Shown in pieces: positions 12,011 through 38,992 of a stretch of 64,000 nucleotides of DNA. The notes below the pieces were generated by a model. That model was given only the letters and a program-made list of their open reading frames with translations. It made no database searches and was not told the origin of the DNA. How positions within the stretch are numbered: position 1 is the stretch's first letter; every line of letters starts with the position of its first letter. Source of the DNA: Hyphomicrobium sp. LHD-15 (lineage in GTDB: Bacteria > Pseudomonadota > Alphaproteobacteria > Rhizobiales > Hyphomicrobiaceae); the NCBI RefSeq assembly GCF_031157355.1, contig NZ_JAVIFT010000001.1, positions 1,302,001-1,366,000 of the forward strand, in the 5' to 3' direction. The translations under genes were made by a program, and so were the position numbers.

Positions 12011-12024
12011 TTAACCTCGGTTAA
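12011..12024. promoter_or_regulatory. FNR/NNR-type operator between ubiD and ubiT
   Basis: Perfect palindrome TTAAC-CTCG-GTTAA in the divergent ubiD/ubiT gap, centred about 54 bases upstream of the ubiT ATG and about 68 bases upstream of the ubiD ATG. The architecture (two 5-bp half-sites, 4-bp spacer) is that of CRP/FNR family boxes; the TTAAC half-site matches the NNR-type boxes known from Paracoccus. The same motif recurs near 19608 and 24402. Binding is inferred. Confidence 0.7.
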
Positions 12025-15560: not shown

Positions 15561-16355
15561 TCAAGGGTAACGCGTCGTCGGCGTGAGCTCTTTCAGTATG
15601 CGCCGGATCCGCGCTGAGCCCCCGTTCGCATACGCGCTGTGAACCTGGACAAGCGCCGCTCCGGCGTTTATCCGCGCGCGTACGTCATCGGCCGATCTGA
15701 CATCACCAACGGAAATGACCACAAGCCCGTCGAGGTAGGTCGAGATCGCACCGATGCGGCTCAAACAGTTGGAGACCAGAACGATCCCATCGAGGCCGCT
15801 CACGCGCGCGGCCATAATCGCGGCTGGGAAGTTCGTTCCATGCGATCCCGCCGCGAGTTTGAGAAGCAGCGGCACACGACGTCCAACGACCGCGGATAGC
15901 ACATCTCGCACCGCGCTGAGGCGCTTCACGAGCTTCTCAATACCCGGCATATCGCCGTCCCGATGTAGCGCCGGGGCACTGAGGTTCGCGACGACGTAGT
16001 CGGAGAGACCGACCACCTGCCTTAACGTCGTCGTGTAATCTTCGATCACCTGTTCGCTGAGCCCAGGCAGCGCGCTGCCGATATTGGCTCCGACAATCGT
16101 TCCGGACATGGATCGCCCGAGTGAACCCGCGAGCCGCGTTTCCTGCGTGATGGTGCCAACCTCCACATGCCCGAACCCGTGCGAGCAAAGCGACGGTACC
16201 AGCTCTCCCGTCCGGTCGACTCCGGCCGCCAGGCCCAGTGGATTCGCAAATGCGAGACCCATCACGCTCACCGATCGGTTTGCCACCGAACCAGCCGCCG
16301 TCGACCAGGAGATCTGGCCACCAGGATGATTGCGCCTCTTACCTCGTGCGCGCAT
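15561..16355 (-). CDS. Dihydroorotate dehydrogenase-like flavoprotein
   Basis: 264 aa TIM-barrel protein similar to class 2 PyrD: LAFANPLGLAAGVDRTGE at the N-terminus, YVVANLSAPALHR (DHODH has NISSPNT), LLLKLAAG (VKIAPD) and the C-terminal SVGDVRSADDVRARINAGAALVQVHSAY phosphate-binding loop. The central ligand loop TNTT is replaced by VSNCLSR, and the protein is shorter than canonical PyrD (about 340 aa). It is therefore likely a paralogue acting on another substrate. It is the last gene of the pqqA-D-E operon, starting just after the SerC-like gene. The frame is open further upstream, but the ATG at 16355 lies right after that gene's stop. Confidence 0.72.
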   Translation of the reverse strand: MRARGKRRNHPGGQISWSTAAGSVANRSVSVMGLAFANPLGLAAGVDRTGELVPSLCSHGFGHVEVGTITQETRLAGSLGRSMSGTIVGANIGSALPGLSEQVIEDYTTTLRQVVGLSDYVVANLSAPALHRDGDMPGIEKLVKRLSAVRDVLSAVVGRRVPLLLKLAAGSHGTNFPAAIMAARVSGLDGIVLVSNCLSRIGAISTYLDGLVVISVGDVRSADDVRARINAGAALVQVHSAYANGGSARIRRILKELTPTTRYP

Positions 16356-16357
16356 CG

Positions 16358-17431
16358 CTAACCTCTCCGGCGCTTGAAATCGGACATAAAGCTGACGAGC
16401 GCGTCTACGGCGTCCTCGGCAACTGCGTTGTATAGCGACGCACGGAGCCCCCCCACCTCGGGATGGCCACGCAGGTGGCAAAGTCCTGTCGCCTGCGCTT
16501 CCTCGGCGAATGTCAGATCGAGTGCAGGATCAGGAAGTCGAAAGCAGATGCTGATCGACGAGCGGTGCCGTGGCGATGCTCGGCAACTGTAGAACCCGCC
16601 GCTCTCGTCAATTGCTGCATAGAGCTTGGCACTCTTCACCTTGTTCCTTGCCGCAGCAGCCGCAAGCCCACCGTGTTCGCGAAGCCACGCCAGCATTCTT
16701 CCGGCCACGAGGACGGCGAACGTCGGCGGCGTATTGACTCGGGAATTGGACTTGTCCTGGCGCGCATAGTCGAAAGGCGCCGGTGTCCCGCTGCGAGCGC
16801 GGTCAAGGAGCTCCTGCCGCACGATTACGATCGTGAGTCCCGCCGCACCGAGGTTCTTCTGAGCGCTCGCATAGATCAATCCGAAGCGTTCCACGGGGAT
16901 CGGACGCGTCAGGAAATCGGCCGTCATGTCGGCGACCAGTGGAGCGGCAACGTCCTCGGGATAGGATTGGAATTGCAAGCCGTCGACGGTCTCGTTCGTG
17001 GTGTAGTGACAGTAGGCGGCGTTTGGAGACCGGTCCCATGTCGAGGGCTCCGGAAGCGCGCTCTCGCTGCCAAGGGCGATCACACGCGGGTTGCAGTATG
17101 GTGACGCCGCTTCGAACGCACGTCGCGACCAATACCCACTCTGCACATAGTCGCAATTGTTCTTGTCTCCCAGAAGGTTCATGGGAAGTAACGAAAATTG
17201 CGCCGACGCTCCGCCCTGGAGAAAGAGCACACGGTACGACTCCGGAAGATCGAGTAGAGCCCTGAGATCGTGCTCGGCAGACGCCGCGATGTCGGCGAAC
17301 TCCTTCCCGGTAAACGGCAGCTCCAGCGCCGAAACTCCTGAGCTGCGCCACTCGCCAATATCGTCACGGAGAGCCGCCAGAACATCATCAGGCAGCTTGG
17401 AGGCGGCCGAAGAGAAACTGACAACCTTCAC
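16358..17431 (-). CDS. SerC-like class V aminotransferase
   Basis: PLP enzyme resembling phosphoserine aminotransferase: FSSAASKLPDDV at the N-terminus, the LFLQGGASAQFSLLPMNLL block, HYTTNETVDGLQF, the PLP-lysine region SAQKNLGAAGLTIVIVR, NTPPTF and the closing GHPEVGGLRASLYNAV. The GTG at 17431 (VKVVSFSSAAS) is preferred because it falls 16 bases after the preceding gene and matches the family N-terminus; an ATG at 17482 would overlap that gene. It lies between a membrane protein and a DHODH-like gene downstream of pqqADE, far from serA, so it may be a specialised paralogue for an unknown amino or keto acid rather than the serine enzyme. Confidence 0.8.
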   Translation of the reverse strand: MKVVSFSSAASKLPDDVLAALRDDIGEWRSSGVSALELPFTGKEFADIAASAEHDLRALLDLPESYRVLFLQGGASAQFSLLPMNLLGDKNNCDYVQSGYWSRRAFEAASPYCNPRVIALGSESALPEPSTWDRSPNAAYCHYTTNETVDGLQFQSYPEDVAAPLVADMTADFLTRPIPVERFGLIYASAQKNLGAAGLTIVIVRQELLDRARSGTPAPFDYARQDKSNSRVNTPPTFAVLVAGRMLAWLREHGGLAAAAARNKVKSAKLYAAIDESGGFYSCRASPRHRSSISICFRLPDPALDLTFAEEAQATGLCHLRGHPEVGGLRASLYNAVAEDAVDALVSFMSDFKRRRG

Positions 17432-19607: not shown

Positions 19608-19621
19608 TTGACTTTTGTTAA
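19608..19621. promoter_or_regulatory. FNR/NNR-type operator upstream of pqqA
   Basis: TTGAC-TTTT-GTTAA, a near-perfect 14-bp palindrome, 78 bases upstream of the pqqA ATG and about 97 bases downstream of the end of the DNR-like regulator gene. It is nearly identical to the site at 24402 (TTGAC-TTCT-GTTAA). It probably drives the pqqADE operon under low oxygen or nitrogen oxides. Inferred from sequence only. Confidence 0.65.
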
Positions 19622-19717: not shown

Positions 19718-20410
19718 CTAGGCCTCGTCTTCGGGTGCATATTCGACGAAGCTAAGGAGACGTCCAATATCGGCGATGTTGACGGTTCCGCGCTCGACCG
19801 TCACGCCGTGCGCACGCAGATGGGCAAGTGCGCGCGAGAAGCTCTCAGGCTTCATTCCGAGCCGGTTGGCGAGAAGTCCCTTCTCGAACGGAAGCTCTAT
19901 GACGGCCGTGCCTTTTCGGACTTGCGTCAGGCGGACCATGAAATCCGCAATCCTTTGCGGGGCCGAGCGCACTTTAATCTGCTCAATCTGCTCAACCAGG
20001 AACTTGAGCTGATAGGACGCCGAGGCCAGCATCGACATGGCCAACGCCGGACGCTCCTCAATACGGCTGCGAAAGGCCGTGCCCTCCACCCTGAGCAGGC
20101 GCGATGCAGCTACAGTCTCGCCGCTAGCTGGATAGCGCCCCCCGAGGAATATGGCGGCTTCCGCAAACGTCTCGCCGCGCGTGAAGACGTGCAGCACCAC
20201 CTCAAGACCGTCCGGCGTCGTTCGATAGATCTTCACCCATCCATCGAGAACGATAAAAAACGCGGCCGCGGGTTCACCCTGCAGAAAAAGGGTAGCCCCC
20301 TTTTCGTATTGGCGCGGCATCGTATTTCCGACGAGCACCTGCGCCGTTTGTAGTGGCATCGCACCAAAAAGCGGGGTGGACTTGACGATATCCCAATCAG
20401 CAGGGTCCAT
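19718..20410 (-). CDS. CRP/FNR-family regulator of the DNR/NNR type
   Basis: 230 aa with a cyclic-nucleotide-like sensor domain (residues 1-125), a dimerisation helix and a C-terminal helix-turn-helix (LLANRLGMKPESFSRALAHLRAHG). It lacks the N-terminal cysteines of FNR, so it should not hold a [4Fe-4S] cluster. Sequence blocks such as FLQGEPAAAFFIVLDGWVKIYRTTPDGLEVVLHVFTRGETFAEAAIF resemble Dnr of Pseudomonas, a heme-dependent nitric oxide sensor. It likely binds TTRAC-N4-GTTAA-like sites, several of which lie nearby, including one candidate in its own upstream region. It is encoded between the pqqADE promoter and the lipid operon. Confidence 0.87.
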   Translation of the reverse strand: MDPADWDIVKSTPLFGAMPLQTAQVLVGNTMPRQYEKGATLFLQGEPAAAFFIVLDGWVKIYRTTPDGLEVVLHVFTRGETFAEAAIFLGGRYPASGETVAASRLLRVEGTAFRSRIEERPALAMSMLASASYQLKFLVEQIEQIKVRSAPQRIADFMVRLTQVRKGTAVIELPFEKGLLANRLGMKPESFSRALAHLRAHGVTVERGTVNIADIGRLLSFVEYAPEDEA

Positions 20411-20472: not shown

Positions 20473-20486
20473 TTGACGCAAGACAA
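20473..20486. promoter_or_regulatory. Weak FNR/NNR-like site upstream of the DNR-like regulator gene
   Basis: TTGAC-GCAA-GACAA, 63 bases upstream of the regulator ATG. The left half matches the other sites; the right half (GACAA instead of GTTAA or GTCAA) deviates. It may be an autoregulatory site, but the match is weaker than at the other positions. Confidence 0.35.
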
Positions 20487-20631: not shown

Positions 20632-20886
20632 TCATAAGCCGTGGCGCTGAAGCACGGTCTCGATGTCAGCCACGCTGCGAATTTCCATCATCTCATCCAT
20701 GGAAAGACGAATGGAGAACGCCATTTCCAGCTCGCGTACCAGAGCGATGTGCTGAAGCGAGTCCCATCTCGAGATATCTTCCGGAGAGGTCGTCCGCGTA
20801 AGGGGACCGGTGTACTGAAACACGTCAGCGAATATCGATATGATCTCCGGATAGGACACAGTCGTCTCAGATGCACTTGCGTCCAT
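20632..20886 (-). CDS. Acyl carrier protein (FkbH partner)
   Basis: 84 aa carrier protein with the phosphopantetheine attachment site DSL (SRWDSLQHIALV) near residue 42. It is distinct from AcpXL (shorter, different termini). Its ATG abuts the stop codon of the FkbH-like gene, so the pair is translationally coupled. In known systems an FkbH-like enzyme loads a glyceryl unit from 1,3-bisphosphoglycerate onto such a carrier protein; that role is inferred here. Its Ser must be modified by a phosphopantetheinyl transferase, and one is encoded at 35319. Confidence 0.88.
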   Translation of the reverse strand: MDASASETTVSYPEIISIFADVFQYTGPLTRTTSPEDISRWDSLQHIALVRELEMAFSIRLSMDEMMEIRSVADIETVLQRHGL

Positions 20887-23115
20887 TTATATCTCCCAGC
20901 TTGCCGTCACAAAGGTCGAAGCCGGCTCATCGCTGGCGTCGCGAACAAACAGCCACGTGGTTCTGCCTGCGTCCGTGCTTGTCTGCGTGAAGCCACAGGA
21001 CGCGTAGAAATCCCGCACCATGGCGTTCTTCGGAGTTGGAACAAATTCTCCGCGAACGCGGCGTATGCCGCGCCGCGCGAGCGCACGCAGCAGCTCGCCC
21101 ACAAATGCCCGCTCGATCTCGCGGCCGATCACGCGGCAGCTCATGACAAGCGTGCGAATAATCGCCTCTCCAGCATCGATATCAACCGTGGCGGCAACAA
21201 CGAGACCATGATCTCCGAACTTGTCGATCACACGGCCCTGCACCGCGATGCCGCTAGCCTCGTCGTTCATGTACCGCGCAATGTCGGATTCCGTCAGACG
21301 CAGCGTCGTCAAATTGAACTGATTAGTCCGCTGATGCATCTGCGCTGCACGCGCCGCGGTCTTGCTGCTCACGAAGCTCAAGACCAGATTCTGCTCGAGG
21401 CCCGCGAGAAACTGATCGATGCTCGCGGCACCTACCTTGGCCTTCCGTGCCTCTCGCTCGACGGCATAGAGCGTCGCACGTGTTTCATCCTCGGCCGTAA
21501 TACGGACGGGCCAGGTCGCTGCGAGCCGCCGAAGCCAAATCGGCCGTTCGGCAGGATCCGAAGGCATCTCCGGAACCATCACCTCCGGACATAGCCGCCG
21601 CATCGCTTCGCGCTCGTGCGGGCTGTCGTCGATGAACAGGAAGGTGTCCAGTCCGAGATTGAGATCGGCTGCGAGCTTGCGGATATTTTCGGGCTTCGGC
21701 TGCCAGTTGATAGCCGTGGCTGAGAAATCGTCCGCTCGAAGCACCATGCCCGGATGCTGCTCGAACACGGAAATGGCATCGGCGTTGTTCTTGCTCAACG
21801 CAACCAGCAGCAGCCCCTGCCCTTTCAGCCTCAAGCATTCCTTTTGGAGGGCTTGATACGCGTTGCCCGGAAAATCATGGCTGCAGGCAAGCCGCTCCGG
21901 ACCGTCGTCGCTGTATACGCCGCCCCACAGCGTGTTGTCGAAATCGACGGCCAATACCTTCGCCCGGCCCCGCCCCTGCAGCTGCCAAGCTTCCGCGAAC
22001 GCCCGAGCCATGAGCCGCGTGGCATCGGCAGAGTACGCGATCCTGCCGTAATACCAGAGCTTGGGATCGGCCTGCTCTTGCACGGAGATCGAGGAGAGCG
22101 CTTGGTCGGCGTCGATGACGACGATGCGGCTCGATCGCTCCGCTGCGTCGAAGATGCGCGCGTTCAATATGTCGACTGCACGCCGAAGTCCTGTGGCATG
22201 GCTGCGATCCAAAAAGCCCGCCGTTGGCGCGGACGGCACCGGGAGGGTGTTGATCAGCAACGGCACATGAGTCCGGGTGGAAAATGCTTCTAACGCATTC
22301 GCCAAGACTTCCGCTTCCGCAACGAGCCGATTTTCCAAGTCATGCGATCCAAGTCGCCAATCCCGCGGTAAAAGGCTTTCGAAGTCGAGCAACACGACAA
22401 GTGCATCGACGTCCGTTGGCGGGGTTATGAGATCCGACAGTGCGCTCCCGTAAAGGCCTTCCGCGATCTCAGCCCTCACGCCCTCCACTGCAAACGCCGG
22501 GCGAATTGCCTCGATCAATGTCCAAGTCGTGGAAGATCCAGAGACGTGAAGCCTCGCGGCTGGCAGTTGCGCAACATGAGTCTCGAGAAGATCGCCAATT
22601 TGATTGAGAATGTGCGGCATGCGATGATAGTGCGCCAACGCCAGACGAAGCGCTTCCTCGTCCCAACTCAGGGCCATGAGCCTCCGCAGCAACGCGCCTA
22701 CAACCGCGGGATCAATATCGGGGTCGTAGGCTAAAGTGGCGATGGCGCCGGAAACCGCCTCGCGTTCGTTCCACTCACCGGACGCGGCATTGAGGCGGTT
22801 CAGCACCGCCAGACTTGCAGTTAGCGTCTGAGCCGAGCCGGCATCCAATTTGTGGCCCGCCAGAAGCAGGGCCTTCGAAAGCCATCGCGGAACCGATAGA
22901 CCTGCCTCGGCGAGCGACAACAACAACAAACTAACCTTCGGCGGCGGGACCTTGGACCAGTCGATGGCCGGCAGAATGACGCGCTGGCGCAGGCATTCCG
23001 GCGCCGCCGCAATGACCGCATCGACGATTTCGCCAATTTTGTCCTCCGTCGCCAGCGCAAGCCCCGGCCGACCTGCACCTGCTCCGCTTTGCCAATAGGA
23101 TGATGCTGATGACAT
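20887..23115 (-). CDS. FkbH-like HAD-IIIC phosphatase/acyltransferase
   Basis: 742 aa. The N-terminal about 375 residues form the variable part seen in large FkbH-like proteins. The HAD motif I is VLAVDFDNTLWGG near residue 385, with FLFIDDSPHEREAMR near 490. The C-terminal about 140 residues are a GNAT-like domain (RTNQFNLTTLRLTESDI, then GEFVPTPKNAMVRDFYASCGF). FkbH proteins make glyceryl-ACP for methoxymalonyl or glycerate-derived polyketide units; related ones act in other lipids or glycans. The start ATG at 23115 lies 10 bases after the stop of the MaoC-SDR gene. Together with the downstream acyl carrier protein it suggests an unusual building block for the neighbouring fatty-acid-like system. 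Confidence 0.88.
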   Translation of the reverse strand: MSSASSYWQSGAGAGRPGLALATEDKIGEIVDAVIAAAPECLRQRVILPAIDWSKVPPPKVSLLLLSLAEAGLSVPRWLSKALLLAGHKLDAGSAQTLTASLAVLNRLNAASGEWNEREAVSGAIATLAYDPDIDPAVVGALLRRLMALSWDEEALRLALAHYHRMPHILNQIGDLLETHVAQLPAARLHVSGSSTTWTLIEAIRPAFAVEGVRAEIAEGLYGSALSDLITPPTDVDALVVLLDFESLLPRDWRLGSHDLENRLVAEAEVLANALEAFSTRTHVPLLINTLPVPSAPTAGFLDRSHATGLRRAVDILNARIFDAAERSSRIVVIDADQALSSISVQEQADPKLWYYGRIAYSADATRLMARAFAEAWQLQGRGRAKVLAVDFDNTLWGGVYSDDGPERLACSHDFPGNAYQALQKECLRLKGQGLLLVALSKNNADAISVFEQHPGMVLRADDFSATAINWQPKPENIRKLAADLNLGLDTFLFIDDSPHEREAMRRLCPEVMVPEMPSDPAERPIWLRRLAATWPVRITAEDETRATLYAVEREARKAKVGAASIDQFLAGLEQNLVLSFVSSKTAARAAQMHQRTNQFNLTTLRLTESDIARYMNDEASGIAVQGRVIDKFGDHGLVVAATVDIDAGEAIIRTLVMSCRVIGREIERAFVGELLRALARRGIRRVRGEFVPTPKNAMVRDFYASCGFTQTSTDAGRTTWLFVRDASDEPASTFVTASWEI

Positions 23116-23125
23116 CCACTTCTCC

Positions 23126-24337
23126 TCAGTGCATGTGCTCGCCGCCCGTGACGAGCAGGTTCTCGCCGGTGATAAAGCCGGCATAGGGAGAGGCGAGCAT
23201 CAACGCTGCGCCAGCCACATCCTCCGGCGTCGCCAGACGGCGCAAGGGCGTCCGCGAAATCGTCATCTCCCGCATGCGATCCGGAACGTTGGCCACCAGA
23301 TCGGTCTCGACCAGGGACGGCGAGATCATGTTCACCGTAATTCCGTCCGGCCCGAGTTCCTGCGCCAGGTTTTTGCTCATCGCCAGCAGAGCGCTCTTGG
23401 CTGCGACGTATGGCAGCCAGTTGTGGGCGGTCCGACCGAGGGCGGCGGAGGACAGCACCATAATGACCTTGCCTCGATTAGCCTTCAAAGCAGGCAGCGC
23501 CGCCTGCGTGACGCGGAAGGCGCTCCCGACGATATGGTCGTAGGCAGTGGCAAGGTCGCTCCAACTAAGCCGCGTGAAGGGAGCGGACAGGATTTTGGGA
23601 CCCGCGCTGTTGACGAGAATATCGAGGCCACCATCGGCCGTGACCTGCTCGATCATTTGCCTGACATCCACCTCTCGCGTGACGTCGGCTTGGACTGTCC
23701 GGCAATGCCCCCCGGCTTCGACAATCTCCCGCGCAATGGCATCTGCTGCGGTCTGGCTCTTGTGATAATTGACCCAGACCTTTGCGCCATGCTGTCCGAA
23801 AAGGCGCGCCACCGCCCTGCCAATGCCGCGCGACGCCCCGCTGACGAGCGCGACGCGTCCTTCGAGAAGACGCGATGACACTACTGGAATTGCTGGCCGC
23901 TCCTGCTCGGCGAAGCGAAGAACCTTCACTGTCGCCACTCCGCGCATGACGCAACTACCGTCGGATCGCAGGATTTCCGTCCGAAGCGTGACGAGGCGCG
24001 TATCCCGATCGATCTTCTCGACCGTCGCGCGCGCCTCGACGGTGTCTCCGATGAAAACCGGCTTCGTAAACTCGATACCCTGGGAGACATAAAGCGCTCC
24101 GCGTCCGGGCAGCTTCATTCCCACCAAGGTCGAGAGAAGGCTCGCGTGAAGGAAGCCGTGCACGACACGCTGACCGAACTCGGTGCGTGCGGCAAATTCA
24201 TCATCGACGTGGAGTGCATTGTGGTCACCGGACAAGCGCGCGAACGCGGCCACGTCCTCGGCCGTGATCGTGCGGAACAAGCTCTCAGCCTGTCCAATCC
24301 TCAGCTCCAGAATTCGGTCTGATCCGCTGGAAGTCAT
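23126..24337 (-). CDS. MaoC-like hydratase fused to an SDR ketoreductase
   Basis: 403 aa two-domain enzyme. Residues 1-145 are a hot-dog MaoC-like (R)-specific enoyl hydratase with the motif DHNALHVDDEFA and VVHGFLHASLLSTL. Residues 155-403 are a FabG-like short-chain reductase with the NAD(P) motif GASRGIGRAVARLF, the active-site Ser and Tyr-x3-Lys (PYVAAKSALLAM), and a C-terminal ITGENLLVTGG. It would carry out reduction of a 3-oxoacyl chain and reversible hydration in one polypeptide. It is the first gene of the - strand operon diverging from acpXL; an FNR/NNR-like site lies about 70 bases upstream. Confidence 0.9.
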   Translation of the reverse strand: MTSSGSDRILELRIGQAESLFRTITAEDVAAFARLSGDHNALHVDDEFAARTEFGQRVVHGFLHASLLSTLVGMKLPGRGALYVSQGIEFTKPVFIGDTVEARATVEKIDRDTRLVTLRTEILRSDGSCVMRGVATVKVLRFAEQERPAIPVVSSRLLEGRVALVSGASRGIGRAVARLFGQHGAKVWVNYHKSQTAADAIAREIVEAGGHCRTVQADVTREVDVRQMIEQVTADGGLDILVNSAGPKILSAPFTRLSWSDLATAYDHIVGSAFRVTQAALPALKANRGKVIMVLSSAALGRTAHNWLPYVAAKSALLAMSKNLAQELGPDGITVNMISPSLVETDLVANVPDRMREMTISRTPLRRLATPEDVAGAALMLASPYAGFITGENLLVTGGEHMH

Positions 24338-24401: not shown

Positions 24402-24415
24402 TTGACTTCTGTTAA
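24402..24415. promoter_or_regulatory. FNR/NNR-type operator between the two lipid operons
   Basis: TTGAC-TTCT-GTTAA in the divergent gap between the MaoC-SDR gene and acpXL. Its centre is about 71 bases from the MaoC-SDR start and 132 bases from the acpXL start. It differs from the pqqA site by one spacer base only. It may control one or both operons. Confidence 0.65.
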
Positions 24416-24540: not shown

Positions 24541-24822
24541 ATGGCCTCAACCTACGAAACCGTTGCCGGCATCATCTCATCCACCAGCGACGTTCCCGTG
24601 GAACGCATCACGCTGCAGAGTCACGTCAAAGAGGATCTGGGCGTCGACAGCCTCGCATTCCTCGACATCACTTTCGAGATCGATCAGACGTTCGGGATCA
24701 AGCTTCCCGTCGAAGACTGGATTGCGCGCGTCAATGAGGGAAAGGACAAGGGCGACGACTATTTCATCATAGGGAACCTCTGCGCCCAAATCGATTCCTT
24801 GCGCGTCTCAGCTGCCGGATAG
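24541..24822 (+). CDS. acpXL: AcpXL-type acyl carrier protein for very-long-chain fatty acids
   Basis: 93 aa carrier protein close to rhizobial AcpXL, which carries the 27-hydroxyoctacosanoate-type acyl chain for lipid A. The attachment site is VDSLAFLDITFEID; the family-specific downstream part FGIKLPVEDWIARVNEG and YFIIGNLCAQIDSL is conserved. ATG at 24541 is preferred, though ATG codons at 24535 and 24541 are in frame. It heads a + strand operon of fatty-acid elongation genes, as in Rhizobium (acpXL-fabZXL-fabF2XL-fabF1XL-adh-lpxXL). Confidence 0.92.
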   Translation: MASTYETVAGIISSTSDVPVERITLQSHVKEDLGVDSLAFLDITFEIDQTFGIKLPVEDWIARVNEGKDKGDDYFIIGNLCAQIDSLRVSAAG

Positions 24823-24835
24823 GGCATCGGCAACA

Positions 24836-25306
24836 ATGCGGCTTGAATACTTCCAGATGCTCGATGGGATCGAGACGCTTGACACCGAAAAGGCGTCCCT
24901 CGTTGCGGTGGCGCATGTGCCGCTCAAGAGCCCCGTCTTCGAGGGACACTTCCCCGGACATCCCATCATGCCGGGCGTTCTTCTTCTCGAAACGATGGCG
25001 CAAGCCGCCGGATACTTGCTCATGAGTCTCGAAGGCTTTGCGCGCATGCCGTTCTTGGCGAGCGCCAAGACAGCCAACTTTCGCTCGTTCGTAATGCCGG
25101 GATCCACGTTGCAGGTAACGGCTTCACGCCTTCATTCCGGGTCGGGCTATGCGGTGATGGCGACTAGTCTCGAATGCGGCGGCCAGCGCGTAGGCGATGC
25201 GCAGCTTATGATGCGCATCCTGGCCTTTCCCTCAGACGCGCTCGCGCAGCACGTCAAACAGGAAGGCCAGAGGCTGGGGTTCCTCAGAACGGTGGAGGCC
25301 GGCTAA
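24836..25306 (+). CDS. fabZXL: FabZ-type 3-hydroxyacyl-ACP dehydratase of the AcpXL system
   Basis: 156 aa hot-dog dehydratase. The active-site region VFEGHFPGHPIMPGVLLLETMAQ holds the catalytic His, with a Glu in ETMAQAAGYL. The opening MRLEYFQMLDGIETLD matches the FabZXL type rather than housekeeping FabZ. It follows acpXL by 13 bases and its stop overlaps the next ATG. Role: dehydration step in building the very long acyl chain on AcpXL. Confidence 0.9.
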   Translation: MRLEYFQMLDGIETLDTEKASLVAVAHVPLKSPVFEGHFPGHPIMPGVLLLETMAQAAGYLLMSLEGFARMPFLASAKTANFRSFVMPGSTLQVTASRLHSGSGYAVMATSLECGGQRVGDAQLMMRILAFPSDALAQHVKQEGQRLGFLRTVEAG

Positions 25307-26523
25307 TGGCGAAAGCGTGCGACCAAGTTTGGATCACCGGCATCGGGCTTATCAGCTCTCTCGGTGAGGGTGCGGCTCTGCACTGGAACAAGCTCTGCGG
25401 CGCGGGAACGCTTCGACCGGTTATCGATCCCCAGCGTTTTGCGCCCTACACGGTTCATCCCCTCGCCGACATCGACTTCTCGAAGCAGATCCCCCGGACC
25501 AGCGATCAACGCCAGATGGAACGCTGGCAACGGATCGGCGTCTATGCTGCAGGACTGGCCCTGGCGGATGCCGATATTGCCGGCGATCAGGAGCTTCTCG
25601 AAAAGACGCATCTGTGCATCGCAGCCGGCAACGGTGAACGCGATATCGCGCTGGATTCCCGCATTCTCGCCGGCAACCACGCGGACGGCGCGCAAGGCGC
25701 CTACCTCAACCAAAATCTTGCGACGGGGCTGAGGCCCACGCTTTACCTCGGCCAACTTTCCAACCTGCTGGCGGGCAACATCTCGATCGTACACAAGGCG
25801 ACGGGGTCATCGCGCACCTTCAAAGGTGAAGAGATGGCCGGCGCATCGGCGGTCGCTGACGCAGTCAATAGGATCGAGGCCGGCCAAGGAGAGGTGTTTC
25901 TCGTCGGCGGGGCACTCAATGCCGAGCGAGAGGATGTCCTGCTCGGCTGCGAGCTTGCCGGTTCATTGTATAGCGGACCTCACCACTCCGTCTGGCAACG
26001 CCGGCCGCAGGGCGGCGGCCTCGTGCCTGGCAGCGTCGGCGCATTTCTGGTGCTCGAGGCCGCCGAGCACGCCCGCCGGCGAGGCGTCGTTCCCTACGCG
26101 CGTATATCCGGTATTGTTTCGGACCGCTCACGGCGACGTGTCGGAGAAGCCTCTTCCGTTGCAGCCAGCCTCTTCAAAGACCTTCGGCTCAATCCGGCAA
26201 ACGAAGATATCGGAGTTCTTTCCGGCGCGAGCGGTGTCGAGCCAGCGACGTCGGAAGAATTGCAGTTCCTCGCCGAACTGGAACGGCAGAAATTCAAGCC
26301 TGTCGTGAGGGCTTGGGGAAGTGCGCTTGGGCATTCGCTCGAAGCTCACTTCTTTGCAGGTCTTGCACTCGCTTCCTTGGCCGTATCCAACGATGCCTTC
26401 TATCCGCCGTTCGACGCATTTGAGGACAAGGGTGACGCCAAGTCGCATCCCGATCGCGTTCTCGTAACCACGTTCGGTCATTGGCGCGGCGAGGCGTTGG
26501 CGCTGGTCCAGTCTGCATGGTGA
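25306..26523 (+). CDS. fabF2XL: Ketosynthase-like protein without catalytic Cys (FabF2XL type, chain-length-factor-like), copy 1
   Basis: 405 aa thiolase-fold protein: WITGIGLISSLGEGAALHW at the N-terminus, LSNLLAGNISIVHKATGSSRTFKGEEMAG in the middle and VLVTTFGHWRGEALALVQ at the end. At the position of the catalytic Cys (about residue 163) it reads KATGSS, so the Cys is replaced. It should not condense acyl chains alone and resembles the KS-beta/chain-length-factor partner of type II polyketide synthases. Its stop overlaps or abuts the following ketosynthase gene, supporting a heterodimer. It is similar along its length to the second copy at 28942. Confidence 0.85.
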   Translation: MAKACDQVWITGIGLISSLGEGAALHWNKLCGAGTLRPVIDPQRFAPYTVHPLADIDFSKQIPRTSDQRQMERWQRIGVYAAGLALADADIAGDQELLEKTHLCIAAGNGERDIALDSRILAGNHADGAQGAYLNQNLATGLRPTLYLGQLSNLLAGNISIVHKATGSSRTFKGEEMAGASAVADAVNRIEAGQGEVFLVGGALNAEREDVLLGCELAGSLYSGPHHSVWQRRPQGGGLVPGSVGAFLVLEAAEHARRRGVVPYARISGIVSDRSRRRVGEASSVAASLFKDLRLNPANEDIGVLSGASGVEPATSEELQFLAELERQKFKPVVRAWGSALGHSLEAHFFAGLALASLAVSNDAFYPPFDAFEDKGDAKSHPDRVLVTTFGHWRGEALALVQSAW

Positions 26524-26534
26524 GAGCGACCGGT

Positions 26535-27818
26535 ATGGGCAGCCGAATGCTGGATCAGAAAGGCCGACCGGTGGTCGTCGTTACCGGAATTGGCCTCGTG
26601 ACTTCGCTCGGCGTCGGCGCAGACTTGTGCTGGAGCAGGCTCACAGCCGGGCACTCGGGCGTGAAGCCCATCACGCGCTTTCCGACGGACGGGCTCCGAT
26701 CTACGATCGCCGGAACCGTCGACGATTTCGATATTACCCCTACGTCGGCTTACGATTTGTCGATGGCGATGGCCGAAGCCGCAGCCAGCGAGGCGATCGT
26801 TCAGGCACGCATCGGAAGCGTGTCGCGCTTTCCCGGCCCTCTTATTGTCGCAACGCCCCCGTCGGAGCTCGAGTGGCCTCACCTCGATCGGCTCCATGAT
26901 CACGATCCCGGTGGCGATCTCACCGGCTACCAGCGAATTCTTGCAAATGCCCGTACCGGGTTGTTCGCAGACTTGGCGAAGCACGTCCGCTTTGCTGCGA
27001 TCGCGGATCGCCTGCAAGAGCGTTTCGGCACGCAGGGCGAGCCGCTATCGATCTGCACCGCCTGCGCATCGGGGGCGACGGCGATCCAGATCGGCCTGGA
27101 GTCCATCCGGCGCGGTGATGCCGACGCGGCCCTCTGCGTCGGTACCGACGCGACCGTCCACCCCGAAGGGCTGATCCGGTTTTCCCTCCTTTCGGCGCTG
27201 TCGACAGCGAACGAGGATCCCAAAAAGGCTTCGAGGCCATTCTCGAAACGCCGCGACGGCTTTGTCATGGCGGAGGGCGCTGGCGCACTGGTCCTCGAAT
27301 CCTACGATGCAGCGAAGGCGCGCGGAGCAAAGATTCTGGCCGTCGTACGCGGATGTGGCGAGAAGGCAGACGATTATCATCGCACACGCTCGAGCCCCGA
27401 CGGCGCAGCGATGATTGCATCGATCCGCAGGGCCCTCGCCGACGCCGGCGTCTCGCCCGAAGAGATCGACTATGTCAACGCGCACGGCACCAGCACCCCA
27501 GAGAACGACAAGATGGAATACCTCTCTCTTCATGCGGTGCTTGGCGAGCATCTTGCTCGCACGCCAATCAGCTCCTGCAAGTCCATGATCGGGCATACGC
27601 TTATTGCAGCAGGCTCTGTGGAAGCGGTTCTCTCGGTGCTCACCCTCAACACCGGCGTTCTGCCACCCACCATCAATTACGACGAGCCGGATCCCGATCT
27701 TCCGCTCGACGTGGTTCCCAACACCAGCCGGACCGCCCGCGTCTCTACCGTGCTCTCCAATTCGTTCGGATTTGGCGGTCAGAACGTCTGCGCCGTTTTT
27801 TCGGGAGAGCCTGCATGA
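26535..27818 (+). CDS. fabF1XL: Beta-ketoacyl-ACP synthase II (FabF1XL type), copy 1
   Basis: 427 aa active ketosynthase: VVVTGIGLVTSLGVGADLCW near the N-terminus, the nucleophile elbow ICTACASGATAIQIG with Cys at residue 177, VNAHGTSTPENDKMEYLSLH with the first His, and SCKSMIGHTLIAAGSVEAV with the second His. The last residues NSFGFGGQNVCAVF close the fold. The ATG at 26535 is used; ATG 26517 would overlap the previous gene. Likely elongates the acyl chain on AcpXL together with the Cys-less partner. Confidence 0.9.
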   Translation: MGSRMLDQKGRPVVVVTGIGLVTSLGVGADLCWSRLTAGHSGVKPITRFPTDGLRSTIAGTVDDFDITPTSAYDLSMAMAEAAASEAIVQARIGSVSRFPGPLIVATPPSELEWPHLDRLHDHDPGGDLTGYQRILANARTGLFADLAKHVRFAAIADRLQERFGTQGEPLSICTACASGATAIQIGLESIRRGDADAALCVGTDATVHPEGLIRFSLLSALSTANEDPKKASRPFSKRRDGFVMAEGAGALVLESYDAAKARGAKILAVVRGCGEKADDYHRTRSSPDGAAMIASIRRALADAGVSPEEIDYVNAHGTSTPENDKMEYLSLHAVLGEHLARTPISSCKSMIGHTLIAAGSVEAVLSVLTLNTGVLPPTINYDEPDPDLPLDVVPNTSRTARVSTVLSNSFGFGGQNVCAVFSGEPA

Positions 27819-27884
27819 CGAAGCACACGGTGGACTTCACGGAATTCGAAAAGGTCTCTCATGTACGGTAGCGAAGGTGTTCGA

Positions 27885-28925
27885 ATGCGCAGTACGACAA
27901 CGCGTGCGGCCGAGCTTCGTGGAAAGCGCTATGTGCTGATCAACTCCGTCGATGATCCGCCCGCTCCCGAGCCGGACGAGGTGAAGGTACGCATCCGCGC
28001 CGTCGCCCTAAATCATATCGACGTATGGAGCTGGCGCGGTATGGCCTTTGCCGAGCGCAAGCTGCCGATCATTCTCGGCGCGGAGGCGGCAGGTGACGTG
28101 ATCGCCGTCGGAGATGCCGTCGAGAACCTGTTTCCGGGCGACACAGTCGCCCTCTACGGCGCCAAAACCTGCGGCACCTGTCCGGCGTGCCGGGAGGGTC
28201 GCGACAATTTTTGCGAAGGTCCGGCCGCAATGTACGGCTTTCATATCGACGGCTTTCTGCGCGAGCGCATCAACGTGCCTGCGCGCATCGCCGTCAAGGC
28301 GCCCAAGGGCCTCAACGTTGTCGCCGCCGCCTGTTCACCGATTACCTTCGGAACCGTCGAGCACATGCTGTTCGACAATGCCAATCTCAAAGCCGGCGAG
28401 ACAGTACTCGTCCAAGCCGGCGGCAGCGGAATTGGAACAGCTGCCATCCAGCTTGCCAAGGCCGCTGGCGCAACAGTGATCGCGACGGTCGGCAGCGCAG
28501 AAAAGGCGAAAAAGGTTATCGCTCTCGGCGCCGACCACGTCATCAACTACCGCGAGGAGCGTGTCTCTGGCCGTGTGCGAAAGATCACCGATCGCCAGGG
28601 AGTCGACGTGGTGTTCGAGCACGTGGGACCGGATACGTGGGAAGGAAGCATCATGTCGCTCAAGCGCGGAGGACGGCTCGTGACCTGCGGATCCACCACC
28701 GGCGTCGCCGCAAGCACGAACCTCTATTTGCTGTTCCAACGGCAGTTACGTCTAATCGGCAGCTTCGGTTGTCGGATGAAAAATATGGAAAGTTCCATGG
28801 AGAAGATGGCCAAAGGCCTCGTTGCTCCGATGATCGATACCGTCATCGGCCTCGACGAGATCGAGAATGGCCTGGAGCGTCTGGAAGCTCGCGACGTTTT
28901 CGGCAAGATCGTGATCGCCCTCTAG
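27885..28925 (+). CDS. Zinc-type alcohol dehydrogenase/enoyl reductase-like MDR protein of the AcpXL operon
   Basis: 346 aa medium-chain dehydrogenase/reductase. N-terminal catalytic domain with HIDVWSWRGM, ILGAEAAGDVIAVG and the structural-zinc cysteine group CGTCPACREGRDNFCEG; NAD(P)-binding domain with VQAGGSGIGTAAIQLAKAAG. The same gene sits in rhizobial acpXL clusters as adh2XL, where it is needed for, or linked to, making the very long chain; it may act as an enoyl reductase or work on the omega-1 hydroxyl. An in-frame ATG at 27861 is possible; the ATG at 27885 gives the usual start. Confidence 0.87.
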   Translation: MRSTTTRAAELRGKRYVLINSVDDPPAPEPDEVKVRIRAVALNHIDVWSWRGMAFAERKLPIILGAEAAGDVIAVGDAVENLFPGDTVALYGAKTCGTCPACREGRDNFCEGPAAMYGFHIDGFLRERINVPARIAVKAPKGLNVVAAACSPITFGTVEHMLFDNANLKAGETVLVQAGGSGIGTAAIQLAKAAGATVIATVGSAEKAKKVIALGADHVINYREERVSGRVRKITDRQGVDVVFEHVGPDTWEGSIMSLKRGGRLVTCGSTTGVAASTNLYLLFQRQLRLIGSFGCRMKNMESSMEKMAKGLVAPMIDTVIGLDEIENGLERLEARDVFGKIVIAL

Positions 28926-28941
28926 TCGATCAGGAGAGCAA

Positions 28942-30171
28942 GTGAGCAACGCGACGCGCAGAAACGACGTTTGGATCACAGGTATCGGGCTCGTCAGCTC
29001 GCTCGGCGCCAATGCCGACGAACACGTCGCGCGACTTTTCTCTGGCGGCCCTGCCGTGCGCCCCGCGCTGGACGAGTCTCGCTATGCTCCCTATCCCATT
29101 CATCCTCTGGCCCCGCTCGACTTCTCGAGCCAAATCCCGAAAAAGAGCGATCAGCGGCAGATGGAGCTCTGGCAGCGGATCGGCGTGCACGCGGCAGGTC
29201 TGGCATTGTCCGATGCCGGAATCGCCGGAAATGCCGACCTTCTCGACCGCACTCATCTCGTCGTTGCCGCAGGCAGCGGCGAGCGCGATACCAAGGTTGA
29301 CTGCGAGGTGCTCGACAAGCTTGGCCCGCGCGATGATGCCGCTCTGCTCGCCAAGGAAGTGCTGCCGAGTGCCCTGCGTCCGACCTTGTTTCTTGCCCAG
29401 CTCTCCAACATGCTCGCGGGGAACATCTCAATTGTCCACAATGTGACGGGCTCATCCCGCACGTTCATGGGTGAGGAGATGGCGGGCCTTGCTGCGATGG
29501 AGAACGCGTTTCGCCGTATCCAGGCCGCGCAAGCCGACGTCATCCTCGTCGGCGGTGCGCTCAACGCCGAGCGCGAGGACTTGCTGCTCGGCTACGAGAT
29601 CGGCCACAATCTGTGGCGTGGCCCCTTCCGACAGGTGTGGGAGAGGCGGGGTGACGGTGGCGGCTTCATTCCCGGCAGCGTCGGCGCCTTCATCGTGCTT
29701 GAATCAAGCGCGCATGCGCGCGCTCGATGCGCAAAAGCCTATGCGAAAATTTCGGCCATCGAAACGGATCGGACAAGTCGAGAGCCCGGAGAAACGGTGC
29801 TGCATGCGCTAACGCAACTCCTAAGTCGTATTTGGAGCGATATCCCGGACGGACCGCTCCTGACCTTCAGCGGTGCAAGCGGCACCGAGCCGGCAACCAG
29901 CGAGGAGCTGCTCTTTCTCTCCCGGCTCGCATCGCTCGATCATGAAACAGCGATACGTGCTTTCGGCAGCGCTGTTGGGCATGGCGTCGAAGCTCACTTT
30001 CCGATGGGCATTGCTCTGGCTGCGCTTGCCCTGAAGCATGGAACCGCTCTCGCACCTACGGAACCGTCGGAGATAGAACGTCCGTTTTCCGCAGCGATCG
30101 AGCGCGTGCTTGTCACGGGTGTTGGTCACTGGCGCGGCGAAGGACTTGCCCTCATCGAAGCAATCCAGTGA
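28942..30171 (+). CDS. Ketosynthase-like protein without catalytic Cys, copy 2
   Basis: 409 aa paralogue of the protein at 25306, sharing WITGIGLVSSLG, the YxPYPIHPLAPLDFSSQIPKKSDQRQME block, LSNMLAGNISIVHNVTGSSRTFMGEEMAG and VLVTGVGHWRGEGLALIE. The Cys position (about residue 166) reads NVTGSS, so it is also a chain-length-factor-like partner. GTG start with GGAGAG upstream. It directly precedes a second active ketosynthase, so the whole fabF2-fabF1 pair has been duplicated with the dehydrogenase gene between the copies. Confidence 0.84.
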   Translation: MSNATRRNDVWITGIGLVSSLGANADEHVARLFSGGPAVRPALDESRYAPYPIHPLAPLDFSSQIPKKSDQRQMELWQRIGVHAAGLALSDAGIAGNADLLDRTHLVVAAGSGERDTKVDCEVLDKLGPRDDAALLAKEVLPSALRPTLFLAQLSNMLAGNISIVHNVTGSSRTFMGEEMAGLAAMENAFRRIQAAQADVILVGGALNAEREDLLLGYEIGHNLWRGPFRQVWERRGDGGGFIPGSVGAFIVLESSAHARARCAKAYAKISAIETDRTSREPGETVLHALTQLLSRIWSDIPDGPLLTFSGASGTEPATSEELLFLSRLASLDHETAIRAFGSAVGHGVEAHFPMGIALAALALKHGTALAPTEPSEIERPFSAAIERVLVTGVGHWRGEGLALIEAIQ

Positions 30172-30178
30172 GGCCACG

Positions 30179-31456
30179 ATGACCAACGCCTATCGTGACA
30201 GCAAAGGTCGGCCGCTCGTCGCAGTGACGGGACTGGGCGTCGTGACATCGCTCGGGCAGGGAAAGGAAGACAACTGGGCAGCTCTAAAGACGGGCCGCTC
30301 CGGCATTCGTCCAATCACGCGATTTCCAACCGATGGCCTGCGCACAACCATTGCCGGCACCGTCGAATTTCTGGGTATCGAACCCTACTCCGCGTCTGCG
30401 CTCTCGGCGGCAATGGCGATCGCGGCGGCAACAGAGGCAATCGAGCAGGCCCGCATCGCGTCCTCGACGTTTCCGGGGCCGCTCTACCTCGCCACACCGC
30501 CCGCCGAAATCGAGTGGCCGCAACGCCGGGCCCTCTACGATGCGTCATCGACATCCACCGAAACGGGATACAAGCGCCTGCTTGCCGCCGCGCGCGGTTC
30601 GGAGTGGCGCGAGCTGCACGCCATTTCCCAGTTTGCGAGCGTCGCCGAATGTGTGGCTCGTCGGCTTGGGACGCGGGGCCTGCCTGTCTCTGTGTCGACC
30701 GCTTGCGCGTCCGGCGCAACGGCAATCCAACTTGGCGTCGAAGCCATCCGGCGCGGAGATACGACGGCCGCACTCTGCATCGGCACCGACAGCTCGGTGC
30801 AGATCGAGGCTTTGATCCGCTTCTCGCTGCTGTCCGCGCTCTCAACGCGAAACGACGCCCCGGCCGAGGCGTCGCGACCGTTCTCCAAAGAACGCGATGG
30901 GTTTGTAATGGCGGAAGGCGCTGGCGCCCTGGTTCTCGAATCTTATCAGGCCGCGATTGCACGAGGCGCCAATGTCCTCGGCATTGTTCTGGGATGCGGC
31001 GAGAAGGCCGACGACTACCACCGTACACGTTCCAAGCCTGACGGCACGGCGATCATTGGGGCAATCCGAAATGCCGTCGCCGATGCAGGCGTCGACCCTG
31101 GGGATATCGACTACGTCAATGCCCACGGCACCAGCACGCCCGAGAACGATAAAATGGAATACATGTCGCTTCGCGCGGTGCTGGGCGATCACCTCACGAC
31201 GACACCGGCCAGCTCGAACAAGTCGATGATCGGCCATACGCTCTCAGCCTCCGGAGCCATAGAAGCGGTGTTTTCGCTGCTAACGATCCAAAACGGCGTA
31301 TTGCCGCCAACAATCAACTACGTCACCCCAGATCCCGAGATCCCGATCGACGCCGTTGCTAACTCGGCGCGTCCCGCCGAGGTGAGGACAGTCCTTTCGA
31401 ACTCGTTCGGTTTCGGCGGGCAGAATGTGTGTCTCGTCCTCGGCGCTCCTCTATGA
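30179..31456 (+). CDS. Beta-ketoacyl-ACP synthase II (FabF1XL type), copy 2
   Basis: 425 aa active ketosynthase, paralogue of the one at 26535. Nucleophile elbow VSTACASGATAIQLGVEAIRRGD with Cys at residue 176, VNAHGTSTPENDKMEYMSLR and NKSMIGHTLSASGAIEAVF with the two His, and NSFGFGGQNVCLVL at the end. It starts 7 bases after the copy 2 partner. Rhizobial clusters usually have one such pair before lpxXL; here the second pair stands where lpxXL would be expected, and the following gene is a porin. Confidence 0.9.
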   Translation: MTNAYRDSKGRPLVAVTGLGVVTSLGQGKEDNWAALKTGRSGIRPITRFPTDGLRTTIAGTVEFLGIEPYSASALSAAMAIAAATEAIEQARIASSTFPGPLYLATPPAEIEWPQRRALYDASSTSTETGYKRLLAAARGSEWRELHAISQFASVAECVARRLGTRGLPVSVSTACASGATAIQLGVEAIRRGDTTAALCIGTDSSVQIEALIRFSLLSALSTRNDAPAEASRPFSKERDGFVMAEGAGALVLESYQAAIARGANVLGIVLGCGEKADDYHRTRSKPDGTAIIGAIRNAVADAGVDPGDIDYVNAHGTSTPENDKMEYMSLRAVLGDHLTTTPASSNKSMIGHTLSASGAIEAVFSLLTIQNGVLPPTINYVTPDPEIPIDAVANSARPAEVRTVLSNSFGFGGQNVCLVLGAPL

Positions 31457-33011: not shown

Positions 33012-33025
33012 TTAACTGAGATCAA
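33012..33025. promoter_or_regulatory. FNR/NNR-type site upstream of the DUF2478 gene
   Basis: TTAAC-TGAG-ATCAA, combining an NNR-type left half with an FNR-type right half, about 95 bases upstream of the DUF2478 ATG. Consistent with anaerobic control of that gene. Confidence 0.55.
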
Positions 33026-38014: not shown

Positions 38015-38992
38015 TCACCAGCGGGCGAGCACCGCACCCCAAGTAAATCCGCCGCCCATGGCCTCCATGAGCACCAGATTTCCTTCACGGAGACGGTGTT
38101 CTTCAAAAGCCAGGTTCAGAGCCAGCGGGATCGAAGCGGCCGACGTGTTGCCGTGCCTATCGATGGACATCACGATCTTTTTGGGGTCGACCCCCAGCTT
38201 TTTGGCAATCCCTTCCAGGATGCGAATGTTGGCCTGGTGGGGGACGAAGAGATCGATTTCGTCCGCCGCGAAGCCGGTTGCGACCAGCGTTTCCTCGATC
38301 ACGCCCGAGATTTTCTGCACGGCGTGGCGGAACACCTCGCGGCCGTTCATGCGCAAATGTCCGACGGTTTTCGTCGAACCCGGACCGCCATCGACATAGA
38401 GCAAATCCTCGAAGCGGCCGTCCGATCGGATCAGCGTCGAGAGGATACCGCGATCTTCGCGCGTGCCGTGCTGGGGCTGAGCTTCGAGCACCACAGCGCC
38501 CGCCCCGTCGCCAAACAACACGCAGGTCGAGCGATCGGTCCAATCGAGGATGCGGGAGAACGTTTCGGCGCCGATGACGAGCGCGCGGACGGACTGCCCG
38601 GTCTTGATGAAGTTGTCGGCGATGGACATCGCGTAGACGAAGCCCGAGCACACGGCCTGGACGTCGAACGCGGCGCCTTTGGTCACGCCGAGGCCCGATT
38701 GAATGCGCGTAGCCGTCGACGGAAAGGTTCGATCCGGCGTCGCGGTCGCGCAGATCACCAAGTCGATGTCGACCGGATCGATGCCGGCCCGAACCAGGGC
38801 TTGGCGCGCAGCCGCGATCCCGAGGGTCGAGGTCAGCTCGTCTTCGGCGGCGATGTGGCGCTGGCGGATGCCGCTTCTCTCGACAATCCAATCGTCGGTG
38901 GTGTCGACGACCTTTTCCAGATCCGCATTGGTCATGACGCGCTTGGGAAGATGTGCGCCGACACCGCGAATGACCGATCGAATGATTGCCAA
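38015..38992 (-). CDS. fabH: 3-oxoacyl-ACP synthase III FabH
   Basis: 325 aa initiating ketosynthase condensing acetyl-CoA with malonyl-ACP. Catalytic Cys in [20 protein letters not shown], His in [18 protein letters not shown], and Asn in [12 protein letters not shown] give the Cys-His-Asn triad. N-terminal [23 protein letters not shown] fits the family. It lies 46 bases downstream of plsX, a common pairing that links phospholipid and fatty acid synthesis. Confidence 0.96.

Follow-up and report, generated by a model that had tools for sequence, protein, structure and literature searches.

A 64,000-nucleotide stretch of Hyphomicrobium sp. LHD-15 DNA (here called the window, to which all coordinates refer unless marked otherwise) contains a divergent locus in which a minus-strand operon encoding a MaoC-SDR fusion, an FkbH protein and its own acyl carrier protein (ACP) faces a plus-strand acpXL fatty acid operon. 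The locus is confirmed as real, and an earlier note on this DNA had already claimed the minus-strand operon, all three genes of which were recovered by profile matches where it had placed them. As a tentative proposal, possible rather than probable, we read both operons as one pathway: a glycerate-derived C3 unit, loaded by FkbH and processed by MaoC-SDR, would prime the ketosynthase (KS) pairs, which would build, with no need for O2, a very-long-chain acyl group oxygenated at the (omega-1) position. A fuller version, which we hold more doubtfully, is that the FkbH/MaoC-SDR/ACP starter module primes a very-long-chain fatty acid (VLCFA) synthase resembling KS-chain-length factor (KS-CLF) systems with a glycerate-derived hydroxy acid, giving O2-independent (omega-1)-oxygenated lipids during denitrification, attached somewhere else than at the lipid A site that LpxXL serves.

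The two operons are inherited together. AcpXL is present in 23 of the 103 genomes of the window's family, and the FkbH clade (membership at E below 1e-150) is found in exactly the same 23, never one alone (Fisher p = 1.9e-23, a value that overstates independence given the kinship among the genomes). The earlier note would have abandoned its interpretation had the operons never co-occurred in other genomes; in this family they always do. MaoC-SDR divergently adjoins acpXL in all 23 genomes; FkbH is the neighbour of MaoC-SDR, although in G428 it begins on another contig, and its ACP usually comes next. H. zavarzinii ATCC 27496 (L033) is among the strains that have the locus. Chance adjacency of the two operons was ruled out because the arrangement is kept in 23/23 AcpXL-bearing family genomes. 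In a sample of 397 genomes from the order, AcpXL occurs in 110 and the FkbH clade in 8, all of them AcpXL-positive and drawn from the window's family and families f11 and f46; a second family of the order has the same divergent arrangement. No further clade member was found in samples of the phylum (398 genomes) and the class (385 genomes), and none was found outside the order in these two samples. The genome bearing the window is 4.29 Mb, and the nearest named relatives of its FkbH are from Hyphomicrobium.

The catalytic residues expected of the three minus-strand proteins are intact. FkbH retains the signature residues of its HAD and GNAT domains (DxDxTxW, SKN, Lys, DD and the Cys of MSCRVIGRE), contrary to the other outcome that the earlier note had said would refute it. 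This Cys, Cys683 when numbered from 23184, is invariant in 63/63 homologues, including those of Streptomyces plasmid operons of the KASIII-FkbH-ACP type, and we take the Cys of the SCR motif to be the nucleophile. A loss of the catalytic Cys, considered in view of a Leu in ALSKN where some FkbHs have CSKN, was dropped, since that position varies among FkbHs and Cys683 does not. With its intact HAD motif, SCR cysteine and partner ACP, the protein has the make-up of a glyceryl-ACP synthase, and FkbH proteins have been described as making glyceryl-ACP (PMC7489565). The start at 23115 (742 aa) is preferred over the listed open reading frame (ORF) start at 23184 because it lies 10 bp past the MaoC-SDR stop with GGAG just upstream. 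An AlphaFold model of FkbH (mean pLDDT 82, pTM 0.52) has a helical N-terminus followed by Rossmann-like (FkbH_N/SGNH-like), HAD phosphatase and GNAT-like domains; its best PDB match by Foldseek is BF1531 (3slr), and most other top matches are GNAT acetyltransferases. The MaoC Asp/His and SDR Tyr/Lys are invariant in 28/28 sequences, the DSL serine of AcpXL is conserved in 28/28 and the WDSL serine of the FkbH-paired ACP in 25/25 related ACPs. The fusion probably supplies the dehydratase and ketoreductase activities that process the loaded unit. Separately, a genome of the same genus without AcpXL (G344) has a cluster of FkbH, ACP, an MBOAT acyltransferase and a more distant MaoC...SDR fusion (L148:3504-8789), so that FkbH in combination with these activities looks like a module in its own right.

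On the plus strand, a gap of 203 bp away, the acpXL operon (24541-31456) runs acpXL-fabZ-KS2a-KS1a-MDR reductase-KS2b-KS1b, in which the MDR protein is likely the enoyl reductase. Across canonical and variant loci (the latter being those with the FkbH module), KS2 of the FabF2XL type has Glu at the active-site Cys in 73/73 sequences and has lost the first His and the Lys, and the Cys is kept in 70/70 KS1 sequences. Lacking these residues, KS2 looks like a CLF partner, and the window indeed has a Cys-less KS homologue beside an active-type KS; FabF1XL/FabF2XL may thus be a KS-CLF-like pair. In the KS1 tree, KS1b falls within canonical FabF1XL (support 100/99), a group that does not include the KS1a sequences next to acpXL. 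Most variant genomes have a second KS/KS2 pair, and the tree therefore identifies most variant loci as a canonical-like pair plus an additional one. The Cys-to-Glu replacement was also observed in canonical FabF2XL (window 25303-26523 and 28942-30171; L113-L132).

Canonical operons differ from the variant in both directions. None of 20 canonical acpXL loci sampled from other families contains MaoC-SDR, FkbH or its ACP, so this sample agrees with the earlier note's statement that such genes are missing from standard rhizobial loci. An lpxXL-type acyltransferase is encoded in 19 of the 20, at 40-58% identity to the reference copy, and the contig of the 20th ends early. By contrast, no lpxXL orthologue was found in the 27 variant genomes searched, in which the best acyltransferases reach only 30-36% identity, as they likewise do in AcpXL-less genomes; three canonical control genomes gave lpxXL matches at 47-49%. 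The window has AcpXL, FabZ, KS2 and KS1 in the canonical order and no LpxXL, and a plain canonical VLCFA operon was rejected on the missing lpxXL of the variant genomes. Attachment of the acyl chain would thus have to proceed without an LpxXL orthologue, and possible acceptors are lipid A, via another transferase, or another lipid. Literature searches on the lipid A or VLCFA chemistry of Hyphomicrobium gave nothing usable.

The gap between the operons holds TTGACTTCTGTTAA at 24402-24415, one mismatch from TTGA-N6-TCAA and in sequence a CRP/FNR (FixK/NnrR-type) promoter palindrome to which binding is predicted. The box has at most one mismatch in 16 of the 23 family loci, several of them perfect, and L101 and L104 have two-mismatch versions; it is absent from L105-L109, most f11 loci and 19/20 canonical acpXL promoters. 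In sequence terms, the shared operator proposed earlier is thus conserved in most related loci and near-absent from canonical promoters. The locus lies within a narGHJI/ubiUV island: the window encodes NarG, UbiU, UbiV, UbiD and UbiX, and an SCP2-domain protein is placed like UbiT. The UbiTUV system replaces O2-dependent hydroxylation. Within the family, ubiV is found in 16/23 acpXL-positive genomes compared with 1/80 of the others (p = 1.7e-12), and of the seven acpXL-positive genomes without it, five are those of the boxless loci L105-L109, a sixth (G404) carries a box of divergent sequence and the seventh (G458) is assembled to 88% completeness. Box and ubiV link together lend support to the earlier suggestion of looking at the lipids under denitrifying conditions. 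The Crp/Fnr protein encoded at 19718..20410, outside the conserved core of the locus, is a candidate regulator of the box. Box matches number 9 strand-wise in the 64-kb window against 2.9 expected: the exact pattern recurs once, upstream of pqqDE (19608-19621), and sites with one mismatch are found between ubiD and the SCP2-domain gene (12011-12024), upstream of the Crp/Fnr gene (20473-20486) and upstream of DUF2478 (33012-33025). These intergenic near-copies of the acpXL/FkbH palindrome possibly mark a local regulon that includes pyrroloquinoline quinone synthesis genes.

Joined together, these parts suggest the following route. FkbH would take the glyceryl unit of 1,3-bisphosphoglycerate, strip the phosphate and put the C3 unit on its own ACP, after which MaoC-SDR, as a dehydratase-ketoreductase pair, would convert glyceryl-ACP through (enol)pyruvyl-ACP to, most likely, lactyl-ACP. 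The dehydratase and ketoreductase of the bryostatin loading module reportedly turn glyceryl-ACP into pyruvyl- and then lactyl-ACP. FkbH loading modules yield D-lactate-ACP (PMC7901079). The KS/CLF-like pair KS1a/KS2a would condense the hydroxy-C3 starter with malonyl-AcpXL, and later rounds by FabZ or MaoC, SDR, the MDR reductase and both KS pairs would build the very-long-chain acyl group. Its (omega-1) oxygen would come from the starter rather than from O2, such that a lactyl starter and malonyl units would give an odd-length (omega-1)-hydroxy acid without O2. In the window's lineage, a CRP/FNR-type regulator would switch the pathway along with nitrate respiration and O2-independent ubiquinone synthesis. 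A starter role would account for the joint occurrence of the three minus-strand genes, for the extra KS pair and for the association of the locus with anaerobic respiration across much of the family. The earlier note had guessed at a chain starting or ending with a glycerate-derived unit or another modified lipid; its biochemistry is plausible and a chain starting with such a unit fits, but the product itself stays conjectural. It had overlooked that lpxXL is absent and that KS2 is Cys-less, and it had not seen what the second KS/KS2 pair means or that MaoC-SDR likely acts on the loaded unit.

Several points weigh against the starter route. The known rhizobial acids are even-chained (PMC7663294, PMC5644692), whereas a C3 starter predicts odd length. 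The nearest FkbH relatives outside the clade adjoin MBOAT acyltransferases, which suggests an acyl-donor role there. MaoC-SDR could serve ordinary elongation, because the window has no counterpart of the stand-alone SDR that many canonical operons encode. The anaerobic link is lineage-specific, given that L105-L109 and most f11 loci lack the box and the L105-L109 genomes also lack ubiV. Furthermore, the chemistry is read from sequence.

The acyl-donor role leads to the strongest alternative, which we nevertheless consider unlikely: FkbH-ACP would supply a glyceryl or lactyl group, as a small hydroxyacyl donor, for esterification onto the very-long-chain acid once this is complete, or onto its lipid. 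Rhizobial lipid A does carry 3-hydroxybutyrate or malate on the (omega-1)-OH, placed by unknown enzymes (PMC7663294, PMC11901934), and FkbH-ACP pairs elsewhere have the MBOAT neighbours (L148, L144), but conservation at the variant locus extends to the extra KS pair and to no acyltransferase of any type. Less likely again is a variant that shares the starter logic, in which unprocessed glyceryl-ACP primes an omega,(omega-1)-dihydroxy very-long-chain acid and MaoC-SDR works only in the elongation cycle. The fusion may replace the SDR missing from the window, yet MaoC and SDR always belong to the FkbH operon and not to the acpXL operon, and in the f11 loci the fusion exists alongside an SDR encoded within the acpXL operon. 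The two remaining alternatives are rated low because their partner genes are missing. FkbH-ACP is used in FK520-type pathways (PMC7489565) and could supply a hydroxymalonyl or methoxymalonyl-type extender unit, hence an internal oxygen in the chain, but this is improbable, as variant loci conserve neither that pathway's two dehydrogenases nor its O-methyltransferase. Chain termination by tetronate formation, as in RK-682-type lipids, is most improbable of all. Of the three tetronate genes (PMC4979870) the locus has those for FkbH and ACP but conserves no FabH-like one, and the sole KASIII-like ORF seen in the window (by N-terminal sequence) is ~7 kb off at 38015-38992.

Table 1. Features of the divergent locus and the nearby regulator gene (window coordinates).
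Feature	Position	Strand	Basis
Crp/Fnr-family regulator without cysteines	19718..20410	-	Pfam cNMP_binding + HTH_Crp_2
ACP paired with FkbH	20632..20886	-	Pfam PP-binding E 9e-6; WDSL motif
FkbH	20887..23115	-	TIGR01686, 259 bits vs cut-off 147
MaoC dehydratase/hydratase - SDR ketoreductase fusion	23126..24337	-	Pfam: MaoC residues 22-111, SDR 158-402
CRP/FNR-type palindrome TTGACTTCTGTTAA, shared divergent promoter region (putative site)	24402..24415	.	Sequence conservation
AcpXL acyl carrier protein	24541..24822	+	PRK06508, 128.9 bits vs cut-off 83
FabZ-like dehydratase	24836..25306	+	Profile matches
KS2a, FabF2XL-type, chain-length-factor-like, Glu replacing Cys	25303..26523	+	PRK06519; active-site test
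KS1a, ketosynthase with intact triad, outside canonical FabF1XL group	26541..27818	+	PRK06501; tree
MDR-type (zinc ADH-like) reductase, adhA2XL counterpart	27861..28925	+	Profile match; canonical loci have one too
KS2b, Cys-less partner of KS1b	28942..30171	+	Profile match; active-site test
KS1b, clusters with canonical FabF1XL	30179..31456	+	Tree support 100/99

Two further observations concern the surroundings of such loci. Canonical acpXL-lpxXL operons of family f31 adjoin ubiV without the FkbH module (L121:9398-11286 and L131:2919-4808), and the conserved ORF beside ubiV in both may be ubiU. In the window, a short dihydroorotate-dehydrogenase-like ORF (15561-16481) adjoins a ThiO-like gene and an ORF that is provisionally SerC-like.

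If true, the starter-unit route would give at least one lineage a concrete and testable answer, connect polyketide-style priming with membrane lipid synthesis and, in methylotrophs, tie an envelope lipid to nitrate respiration. A chain-length-factor-like FabF2XL would, in turn, bear on every rhizobial VLCFA operon.

Four known systems invite comparison. The rhizobial acpXL-fabZXL-fabF2XL-fabF1XL-adhA2XL-lpxXL operon, whose product is the 27-hydroxyoctacosanoic acid of lipid A, shares AcpXL, FabZ, KS2, KS1 and the MDR reductase in the same order, whereas the variant lacks lpxXL, usually has a second KS2-KS1 pair and adds the divergent FkbH/MaoC-SDR/ACP operon. The glycerate-utilisation operon of tetronate pathways (FkbH-like, ACP, FabH-like) likewise has an FkbH that bears these signature residues and is paired with a dedicated ACP, but in place of a FabH-like partner the variant locus has MaoC-SDR and a fatty acid operon. 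Bryostatin-type FkbH loading modules of polyketide synthases (PKSs), which form D-lactate-ACP, combine what we take to be the same set of FkbH, dehydratase/ketoreductase and ACP activities; the likeness drawn is one of activities, and here the proteins are discrete and belong to a type II fatty acid system, not a modular PKS. In type II KS-CLF systems the CLF has Gln at the Cys position. The pairing of a KS with an adjacent Cys-less KS homologue is the same in the window, which differs in having Glu at that position, fully reducing partner genes and AcpXL as the carrier.

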